Assembly: GCA_951828385.1 (NCBI GenBank)
Contig: OX639973.1
Span: forward strand, 2,967,200 to 3,031,199
Direction: 5' to 3'
Length of the DNA stretch: 64,000 nucleotides
Source: an uncultured Poribacteria bacterium
Lineage (GTDB): Bacteria > Poribacteria > WGA-4E > WGA-3G
Shown here: piece after piece, positions 32,087-35,231 of the stretch
Position numbering within the stretch: the stretch's first letter is position 1
Layout: each line of letters begins with the position of its first letter
Notes under the pieces: model-generated
The model's input: only the letters and a program-made list of their open reading frames with translations
Told to the model about the DNA's origin: nothing
The model's database searches: none
Made by a program: the position numbers and the translations under genes

Positions 32087-33214
32087 TTAAACCTCAACTT
32101 GCCGGAGATCCGCTTGATCCAGCGTATTCGTGCCTAAATCGAGCTTACTCGCTGTACTAATATGGTTCGCGAGTTTAGAGACAGAATCTAATTCCATCTC
32201 CTCGCGTTTCTGGTTGACTGTCTGAAGTACCAACACGTCAAGGATAACCGGGTCAGCACTGATAAAAAGACTCCCGTAGTTCCACGCGCTTTCGGCGTGG
32301 TATGTCGGTCCTCTGTCAAACGAGGCGACCAATCCATCAACGATATTGAGAACAAGTTTCTCCTTCAGCACCTTATGCTCCAGAATTTCAGCGATAGCCG
32401 GGTTGCAATAGATCGGTTTTCCGTGGAACCGGCGTGTGTTATCAACACTCCCGAACGCAAGATTCTTCAAACATCCGCTCACACCCGCCATCGCATGGTG
32501 CTTCAAAACAGGGACATTGATGAGGACATCAACCTGCTGCGTGACGATTCGGGAATACCGAGAACGGGTGCTTTCGTTCTCTCGACGCGCAACACTGTCT
32601 TTTTCGCTCTCATAAAACACCTCATCGTCATATCCAATGCCTTCTGTGTCGGAAGCAAAAGTTCGCACATCCGCCTCATCTTGCTTGATTGGATAACCGG
32701 CGTTCAAGAGATGCTCCTCAAATCGGTCCCAGATAATAATCTGTTTCCGAAGTACACCCGCACCGTATAACCCCTCAACGATCTTATCGACGATGATAGA
32801 ATGTGTACTCAGCTCCGGGCCAGCAAGTGGGTTGATTTTTATACCGACAATATCGTCCGGTAGCACAATATCTCGCCACGCTTCTTTCGCGGAGGAACGT
32901 CCCGTCAACTTCATCATCGCCTGATCCATCAGTTCACTCACAGCATCTTCATTGAGCTGATCGTTTTCCCAAACCTTTTTACCGATAGCCTCAACAACAG
33001 GCGTAAGGGGCACCGCCGCTGTAGTCGCGTCGGGTTGTAATTGTCCGCTACTTAGTTGTGCGAACGCTGGTAGCGTGCTGAGCGCGCCACCGATACCCCC
33101 GACACCGGCAGCAAGTTGCGTTAGGAACTGCCGCCGGTTGAGTGTGTCTCGATAGTCCGTTATCTCTTGACTGTCGGCGATAATGTTTGCTATCACCTTG
33201 TCGTTAGGTTCCAT
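32087..33214 (-). CDS. DUF362 domain protein with Tat-type leader
   Basis: 375 residues. NRRQFLTQLAAGVGG at about residues 26-40 is a twin-arginine-type leader, so export in folded form is likely. The mature part shows DUF362 features: VGIKINPLAG, the block IIVDKIVEGLYGAGV, DVLINVPVLKHHAMAGVSG, CLKNLAFGSVDN and a late LVLQTVNQKR. The family is uncharacterised, and some members carry Fe-S clusters, but no ferredoxin motif is visible here. The ATG overlaps the stop of the upstream selenoprotein candidate by one base (TAATG) and lacks its own strong ribosome site, indicating coupled translation. Confidence 0.8.
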   Translation of the reverse strand: MEPNDKVIANIIADSQEITDYRDTLNRRQFLTQLAAGVGGIGGALSTLPAFAQLSSGQLQPDATTAAVPLTPVVEAIGKKVWENDQLNEDAVSELMDQAMMKLTGRSSAKEAWRDIVLPDDIVGIKINPLAGPELSTHSIIVDKIVEGLYGAGVLRKQIIIWDRFEEHLLNAGYPIKQDEADVRTFASDTEGIGYDDEVFYESEKDSVARRENESTRSRYSRIVTQQVDVLINVPVLKHHAMAGVSGCLKNLAFGSVDNTRRFHGKPIYCNPAIAEILEHKVLKEKLVLNIVDGLVASFDRGPTYHAESAWNYGSLFISADPVILDVLVLQTVNQKREEMELDSVSKLANHISTASKLDLGTNTLDQADLRQVEV

Positions 33215-34425
33215 TAGAATTTACCCAATTCTGTGAGAATTTCCGCCGTTGGTACACGCACCCCCTTGGTATCCAAAGATTTCCAAGCGACTGTTCCATC
33301 CTTTTGAACGATATAAGCGGCGGGACGCGCGATCCTATTATTGCCAGGATCAACAACGTTGTAAGCAGTGATCGCCTCTTTGTCCCCATCGGAAAGTACC
33401 GGAAATTTGAGCCCGTGATTTTGAACAGTCTGCCTGGTATCACCTTCGTTATCGGAACTGATAGCGATAAGTTCCGCGCCTGCAGCTTGAATCTTCGCAT
33501 AGTTCTTTTGCAACTCACCGAGTTGCCCTTTGCAGAACGGTCACCAGCCGCCGCGATAGAAAATAAGGACAACGTTTTTATCAGCGGTATAATCAGCGAG
33601 TGCGTGCAACTTGTTGTTACTATCTGGTAATTCAAAAACTGGTGCCTGGCTTCCAATACTCAACCCCTGACCCGGATCCAACCTTTCCGGTTCTTGGCGT
33701 GGCACGAGTTCGACTGTTAACTCAGATGTCTCAGCCGCGGGTATCGGCTCCACTGAGACTTCTTTATCGTCGTAGCCTGCGTGCGCAATTGTCAACGTAA
33801 AGGGTTGCTGCACAGGAAGGTTCTCAAAAGAGAAAGCACCTGTCACCGTCGTCAACGTTTCGTAAACTTTCCCAGTGTTATCCTTGAGTTGAAGATTGAC
33901 CGCGCCGATGGGTTCACCGGTCGCTTCGCTCGTTAAAACACCCCGCAGATGCGAGACAGGCGTTTCTAACACGGCAAGCGCAATTTTATCAAGCGAAATG
34001 CTCTGGTCTGGGATGACGGTAACGTTCAACTCCGTCGTTTGGTATCCCTTGGCTGAAATCTGGACAGTGTAGTCTCCCGGTTCAGCTTCTTTAACATGAT
34101 ATTTTCCAATCCCCCGTTGTGTAGAGGCGAAGAGGTTAGCATCAGTGCTTGTCGACTTTACACCGTGCATTTCAAATTCAATTTGTGCAAGGATTCGCCC
34201 GGCTTTCAAAAAACGCATGTAGATGGTTACGTCTTCAATTAATTCAACATCACCATAAAAAGAGCCTGGTGCGGTAGTTTCAACCGCGACGGTATCTCCT
34301 GTTCCCTCAATGGGATTTTCTGTCCCGCAGTTCAATCCTGCAAATAACACGAGCGCGAACGCGAACATTTGTATAGCAAGTTTTCGGTTTGCAAGCTGCA
34401 CCGAAAAAGTCAGTACCTGTTTCAT
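33214..34425 (-). CDS. selenocysteine-containing peroxiredoxin-like protein fused to regulatory-like beta domains
   Basis: A single frame of 403 residues if the TGA at 33541-33543 is read as selenocysteine (residue 295). The leader has a hydrophobic segment ending GLNCG, a possible lipobox. Carboxypeptidase-regulatory-like beta domains follow (HLRGVLTSEATGEPIGAV). An AhpC/TSA thioredoxin-fold domain starts near residue 255 (IGSQAPVFELPDSNNKLHAL) and reads FYRGGW-U-PFCKGQLGEL. In homologues the U position is the catalytic Cys of a GGWCPxC motif. The sequence on both sides of the TGA is in the same frame and family. A hairpin at 33503-33537 has its loop 21 nt after the UGA. Role: likely envelope peroxide or disulfide redox. 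GAGGAAAA precedes the ATG. Confidence 0.8.
33503..33537 (-). promoter_or_regulatory. candidate bacterial SECIS element
   Basis: In the minus-strand mRNA, GCAACTC and GAGTTGC (33526-33520 and 33516-33510) form a perfect seven-base stem with loop GGU. Outer TTCT and AGAA pair beneath an internal loop. The apical loop starts 21 nt after the UGA and begins with G, as expected for SelB-binding SECIS hairpins. Confidence 0.65.
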
Positions 34426-34436
34426 TAGTTTTTCCT

Positions 34437-35231
34437 CTATCTACCTATTTGGTGCTTGATTCTGCCCCACGTCGTTGTCAGTTTGTTCACAGGGTCAACT
34501 GCGGCAGCGGTTTCAACACCGTTGTCCATGATAGCATCCATATCGTCTTCTGTTAAAGCGACATTGAAAAGAGCAACATCGTCAATGATACCTGCAGTAT
34601 AGCGGTCGAAGTGCCGCCCAATATGAAATACGCCTTCACTGGTGCCGTATCCATCTTTTTCGTTGAAATCAACCTCGGCTTCCATTTTGCCATCTATCCA
34701 TATCGAAGCCTTACCCGTACTTGCGTCGGCTCTGCCAACGACAAAGTGCCATTTGTCGTCTCCAATTTCGGTGGTGCCGTCTGCTCGAAAACTTGTTGAT
34801 GCACTGTCGCGCAGATAGAGGGTCACCTTATTATCGCCACCGCCATTCCAGAGCAGGTACCACGGGACCGCCTGTGATGTATCCTCGTAGTTTTTGCCGA
34901 CGAGCGCGCCGGCGACCTTGCTGCCTTTGTAATTGAGGGTGATTGTGAACGACACACCTGCCTTAAATCCGACGGTGTTTGAGTGTGGAACTTCAACCCA
35001 GTTACTTGCACCATCAAACTCAAGTGCTTTACCAAACTTTCCATCAACCCACTTCGCGCCGTGGATTTCACCATCGTTTCCCTGTTTTGATGAGTCTGTA
35101 GCGGTACCACCTTTCCCTTCGTTAAAGAGCCATATCCCCATGATATTCGCGGGATCAATCTTAGCAAAACCCGGCAGTGCTATGAATAAAAAGACTGCCA
35201 CAAAACTTGCAAGCGTTAGTCCTACACTTTT
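34437..35231 (-). pseudogene. LamG/concanavalin-like exported protein, 5' end separated by an IS element
   Basis: Encodes a LamG/ConA-like lectin-fold domain (GIWLFNEGKGGTATDSSKQG, ALEFDGASNWVEVPHS, FTITLNYKG, WHFVVGRADASTGKASIWID, FHIGRHFDRYTAGIIDDVALF) and a C-terminal tail NKLTTTWGRIK. No ATG is left in frame; only a GTG at 35201 inside the signal peptide remains. Joining this piece to the bases beyond the insertion sequence restores MFLSKS followed by VGLTLASFVAVFLF, a complete signal peptide with AGGAGGA upstream (268 residues). The gene is therefore interrupted within its first codons and is probably silent or only weakly expressed. Confidence 0.8.

Follow-up and report, generated by a model that had tools for sequence, protein, structure and literature searches.

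Does the in-frame TGA that interrupts a redoxin gene of an uncultured Poribacteria bacterium encode selenocysteine (Sec), and what would such a protein do? The gene lies in a 64,000-nucleotide stretch of DNA, referred to here as the window, which belongs to a genome assembled as a single contig of 6.66 Mb. A previous reading of the window, made from the sequence alone, had proposed a frame continuous through one TGA, and we confirmed both the coordinates and the context of this codon. The frame begins with an ATG (34425-34423), passes through the TGA (33543-33541) after 294 open codons and ends, 108 codons further, with a TAA (33216-33214); the TGA is its single internal stop. The context FYRGGW-UGA-PFCKGQL is exact and places residue 295 in GGWUPFC. 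The features of the locus are the following.

32087..33214, minus strand: DUF362 protein, conserved downstream neighbour, with an RRQFL twin-arginine signal
33214..33216, minus strand: true stop TAA, one-base overlap with the ATG of the DUF362 gene
33217..34425, minus strand: selenoprotein CDS, 403 residues with UGA read as Sec (U295); orthologues L038-L044
33217..33672, minus strand: C-terminal peroxiredoxin-like/redoxin domain, residues 252-403 (PF00578), with fold matches to AhpE and ResA
33510..33526, minus strand: SECIS-like hairpin GCAACTC-GGU-GAGUUGC, loop 21 nt after the UGA
33532..33534, minus strand: Cys298 codon, invariant partner of Sec in UxxC
33541..33543, minus strand: in-frame UGA, Sec295 of UxxC; TGA in 104/104 distinct clade sequences, Cys in the sister L115
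33706..33948, minus strand: CarboxypepD_reg domain, residues 160-240 (PF13620, E 3e-20, in two stretches)
33991..34269, minus strand: additional N-terminal beta-sandwich, residues 53-145, with a weaker PF13620/PEGA-like match
34327..34425, minus strand: signal peptide and near-invariant Cys33, likely lipoprotein anchor; holds a short in-frame repeat insert
34437..35201, minus strand: upstream LamG (concanavalin-like) secreted protein; conserved neighbour

The called ORFs break at the TGA, just as the sequence-only reading had anticipated, and an ORF start lies at 33656. No NCBIfam model scores above its cut-off for the selenoprotein; since no curated model attains its cut-off, annotation pipelines will probably split the gene in two.

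Conservation of the in-frame TGA in Poribacteria

Relatives of the selenoprotein were detected in 74 of the 85 Poribacteria genomes analysed, and almost all of the approximately 155 matches listed carry exactly one in-frame TGA. Full-length orthologues (L038-L044), which are 65-88% identical and have the TGA at the same place, come from seven separately deposited Poribacteria assemblies. Both the TGA and the Cys of the UxxC motif (Cys298) are invariant in 104 distinct sequences around the site, and a quick tree unites all 104 Sec sequences in one clade with support 0.99; L115 lies nearby but is not part of it. The expected homologues with Cys in place of the UGA are L115 (GYWCPVC) and L045-L048 (DWCPFC).

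The broken gene calls are what a sequencing error or a pseudogene mutation in an ordinary Cys redoxin would produce. However, the identical TGA is present in more than 100 sequences from 74 genomes, the seven separately deposited assemblies included, and dN/dS downstream of it, for those pairs that yielded an estimate, is approximately 0.06-0.21, indicating that translation and selection extend beyond the TGA. Recurrence of the codon in dozens of independent assemblies means that it is not the assembly error of which the earlier reading had warned, and together with the purifying selection downstream it rules out this explanation, whose probability we consider negligible. Nearly all Candidatus Poribacteria, mostly sponge symbionts, seem to carry a selenoprotein that gene catalogues miss.

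In another genus of the family, the Sec-redoxin is present next to DUF362 as a tandem array of two or three copies (L083, L085, L089 and L093); their motifs vary (GGWUGSC, GGUTLC, GGLUPQC) and the hairpin is the same.

Sec machinery and meaning of UGA

The Sec machinery, for which a search of the full genome had been proposed, is present in its entirety: selA (603 bits), selB (355 bits), a tRNA-Sec just beyond selB (76 bits, anticodon TCA) and selD (363 bits), which has its own in-frame TGA at CAGUASK. Across the phylum, selA was found in 72 of the 85 genomes. No selA match was obtained in nine Poribacteria genomes that hold a TGA copy, each of them a fragmented MAG of at least 140 contigs, although one (G062) is rated 96% complete.

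UGA has been reassigned in some uncultured lineages, and the codon could in principle stand here for another amino acid, Trp or Gly. Yet orthologues L040 and L043 end in TGA while holding the same internal TGA, and 8 of the 45 window ORFs also end in this codon, so UGA is a normal stop elsewhere. Furthermore, homologues carry Cys at the site, not Trp or Gly, and tRNA-Sec, SelA, SelB and SelD are all encoded. The use of TGA as a stop within the same gene family rules out code reassignment, to which we attach practically no weight. A scan of the window by eye for a second read-through TGA with a redox-like motif gave no convincing candidate.

A SECIS-like hairpin with frozen codons

The sequence-only reading had pointed to a perfect 7-bp hairpin with a GGU loop, 21 nt after the UGA. 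This hairpin (GCAACTC-GGT-GAGTTGC in the DNA) is exact, and its stem codons are under selection. When folded alone it has an unexceptional stability (z about -1.3), and scanning positions 33001-34500 against Rfam, which is not expected to cover it, returned no match at E up to 1. Because single-sequence folding z-scores are weak, its significance was taken from comparison. Across the 104 aligned sequences, the hairpin stem is the only place where the choice among synonymous codons is frozen: Gln is CAA in 98/104, the first Leu CTC in 101/103, Glu GAG in 103/104 and the second Leu TTG in 103/104. Synonymous entropy is 0.08-0.32 bits in these codons versus about 1.3-2 bits at other Leu positions. 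The two stem leucines are encoded by different codons that are complementary to each other, a pattern which, on this comparison, is explained neither by protein-level selection nor by codon bias.

The loop is mostly GGN or GTN, its first base being G in 102 of the 104 sequences. The conserved core comprises 6 bp and is kept almost everywhere; the outermost G-C pair, which 18 of 97 distinct rows do without, is, judging from these sequences, dispensable. Substitutions in the stem replace A-U by G-U and C-G by U-G, and a single double change, C-G to U-A in L103, also turns Leu into Phe. As the stem hardly varies, covariation is almost absent, and the argument therefore rests on synonymous-site conservation and on the Cys sister. 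The latter, L115, encodes QLEELQ at the hairpin site, keeping the residues Q-L-x-E-L-Q, and has no hairpin because its first Leu codon is TTG. The selenoprotein hairpin agrees with the published description of bacterial SECIS elements as stem-loops that closely follow the UGA and have a G in their small apical loop (PMC1088965). Taken together, the 104 natural sequences and the hairpin-less Cys sister are a clean natural experiment on what a bacterial SECIS element requires.

These features also bear on the possibility that the UGA is a true stop, yielding a truncated two-domain lipoprotein and a separate redoxin fragment, or serving regulation between truncated and full-length forms. The ORF start at 33656 would be compatible with a separate fragment, and bacteria recode UGA only in part, with 30-40% given for the in vivo level in PMC4513850. 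A product ending before U295, however, would have no active site, and an invariant UGA followed by a codon-frozen hairpin corresponds to the requirements of Sec insertion; we regard a true stop as very improbable. Some partial termination beside Sec insertion is likely, by analogy with other bacterial selenoproteins. According to the Sec reading, SelB and tRNA-Sec would decode UGA 33541-33543 as Sec, directed by the hairpin just downstream.

Protein architecture and anchoring

From its N-terminus the selenoprotein consists of a signal peptide with Cys33, a beta-sandwich (residues 53-145), a second beta-sandwich that is a clear CarboxypepD_reg domain (156-240) and an AhpC-TSA/redoxin domain (257-381). 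The last matches PF00578 with 110.5 bits against a cut-off of 26 (E 6.7e-32) and is also matched by PF08534. The predicted structure is without confidence over the N-terminal 50 residues. Cys33 follows a hydrophobic stretch and is kept in more than 90% of aligned relatives, but the possible lipobox proposed for this protein is non-canonical. It reads AGLNC, without the usual Leu at -3, and the relatives have GLN, GLG, AFG and similar residues before the Cys, as compared with the lipobox [LVI][ASTVI][GAS]C. The product is predicted to be exported, facing outward, and is probably lipid-anchored via Cys33, and the two beta-sandwich domains would keep the peroxiredoxin-like domain off the membrane. 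A related Sec-redoxin, L136, which L119 resembles by sequence, has a Big_5 Ig-like domain in place of the CarboxypepD_reg domains, so the spacer domains look exchangeable.

The signal peptide also contains, in frame, a short palindromic element, TTTTCGGT-GCAGCTTGCAA-ACCGAAAA (34376-34407, minus strand), which encodes part of SVQLANRKLAIQ. This element is missing from many orthologues, is found in 2-3 tandem copies in L039, L044 and L076, and has similar copies elsewhere in the genome; by this distribution, it is a dispersed repeat inserted into the coding sequence.

Active site and probable chemistry

Sec295 stands at the start of the catalytic helix in a predicted structure with a thioredoxin/peroxiredoxin fold. 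A fold search with the C-terminal domain retrieved AhpE and Bcp/PrxQ as best matches, with Z 23-24 (AhpE 24), ResA being also among the closest solved structures. The earlier claim that Sec occupies the position of the catalytic Cys is correct with respect to CxxC homologues such as ResA, where Sec295 falls on the first Cys. It does not hold for peroxiredoxins, in which Sec295 aligns with the Ser/Thr of PxxxT/SxxC, R291 with the Pro and C298 with the peroxidatic Cys.

A classical peroxiredoxin-type selenoperoxidase reducing peroxide would agree with AhpE and Bcp/PrxQ as the best fold matches and with the PF00578 and PF08534 assignments. However, RGGWUPFC does not conform to the peroxidatic motif PxxxT/SxxC(U), of which the Pro and Thr/Ser are replaced by R291 and U295, and ResA-like CxxC proteins match about equally well; this function appears possible but rather doubtful. 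Since the classical peroxiredoxin site is not preserved, a selenenylsulfide cycle at UxxC is the reading we favour, and chemistry of this thioredoxin-like type is the more likely one. We are inclined, with some reserve, to see thiol/disulfide reduction as the reaction of the selenoprotein. U295, C298 and the N-terminal Cys33 are its only conserved Cys/Sec positions, so that the resolving residue has to be either C298 or an outside thiol.

The sequence itself shows the Sec coding, the selection on the hairpin, the machinery, the domains and the operon. For the direction of the reaction, its substrate and its reductant we infer the following course. With U295 and C298 as the UxxC pair where the catalytic helix starts, the U295 selenolate would most likely attack an oxidised substrate, either a disulfide in a protein or a peroxide; C298 would then close a selenenylsulfide, and an envelope thiol reductant, for example the DsbD pathway, would reset it. 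The source genome encodes a DsbD-type transporter that could be the envelope electron source. We consider it highly probable that the explanation as a whole is right, namely Sec insertion at the UGA via SelB, tRNA-Sec and the hairpin, export with probable anchoring through Cys33, and a redox cycle of U295 and C298.

Conserved neighbours

The upstream LamG and downstream DUF362 genes are both present in 48 of the fetched loci, and DUF362 in 65. In 44 of the 57 loci where it was measurable, the stop codon of the selenoprotein gene and the start codon of the DUF362 gene overlap by one base. The DUF362 protein, for which no NCBIfam match was found, starts with the twin-arginine-type signal NRRQFL and has conserved cysteines at positions 248 (40/40) and 270 (37/38). 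It is tempting, though speculative and on present indications unlikely, to view LamG, the Sec-redoxin lipoprotein and the Tat-exported DUF362 protein as a dedicated selenium-dependent envelope redox module peculiar to Poribacteria, in which the selenoprotein would control Cys248/Cys270 of DUF362 by maintaining them in the reduced state. If true, this module would represent an undescribed selenoprotein-client pair.

Relation to known selenoproteins and redoxins

Peroxiredoxin (Prx)-like selenoproteins with UxxC have been described from the Sargasso Sea, and reviews of 2022 and 2026 list them as Prx-like thiol:disulfide oxidoreductases (PMC1088965, PMC9312934, PMC13188914). The window protein shares the catalytic unit of these Prx-like selenoproteins (PF00578, UxxC/UxxU), with UxxC (U295-P-F-C298) in an AhpC-TSA domain. 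It differs in that one or two CarboxypepD_reg-type beta-sandwiches and a signal/lipoprotein-like N-terminus precede this unit in the fusion, that it is coupled to DUF362, and that its Sec is fixed through most of one phylum. The proposal of a probable new selenoprotein is thus supported as regards the selenoprotein, whereas the catalytic domain is of a known kind; because Prx-like UxxC selenoproteins were already known, 'new' covers the subfamily and its architecture.

Similarity to other families is more partial. Residues 260-367 match the redoxin domain of NCBIfam NF040769 (SelL-related redox protein), but with 47 bits against a cut-off of 120. ResA/TlpA proteins share the extracytoplasmic redoxin fold (sequence E about 1e-12, TM-score about 0.8 on the target) and have W-C-x-x-C where W-U-x-x-C is found here; their N-terminal architecture is different, and the ResA model gives 61 bits against a cut-off of 170. 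Canonical peroxiredoxins (AhpE, Bcp/PrxQ and the Sec form PrxU with TxxU) share the fold, with Z 24 to AhpE, but PxxxTxxC/U is missing here and the Sec precedes the peroxidatic position by three residues.

The architecture, phylum-wide fixation and operon read from these loci do not appear in the selenoprotein catalogues compared. The 2026 review does not mention Poribacteria, and the literature searched yielded no paper that treats Poribacteria and selenoproteins together. SelA and SelB are reported to co-occur in most sponge-symbiont bins and to be missing from most related references (PMC5649159); the selenoprotein suggests that this enrichment may have a role in envelope redox chemistry. 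With it, the bacterial selenoprotein catalogue gains a Sec subfamily that is exported, multi-domain and phylum-wide.

Other redoxins of the source genome

None of the eight redoxins with long N-terminal parts that were scanned in the source genome for the same fusion with Cys contains CarboxypepD_reg; their additional Pfam matches, where there are any, are TPR repeats or a sigma factor. In L165 (G000:C1:5484879-5485235), a single ORF encodes an ECF sigma factor followed by a fused redoxin/AhpC-TSA domain at the C-terminus.

TGA is present in 7 of the 28 AhpC-TSA matches of this genome, which include the window gene and its paralogue (L024/L150). Three further redoxin genes have one in-frame TGA each: L149 with GTWUPNS (UxxS), L161 with TYUPVC (UxxC after a second redoxin-like part) and L168 with SWUGC (ResA-like). 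The remaining case, at G000:C1:3558500-3559321 (L145, L147), is a single open frame of tandem peroxiredoxin domains with a TGA at each peroxidatic position (DFTGGU-TAELC and DFGRGU-TAQVC), and represents a candidate double Sec-peroxiredoxin.
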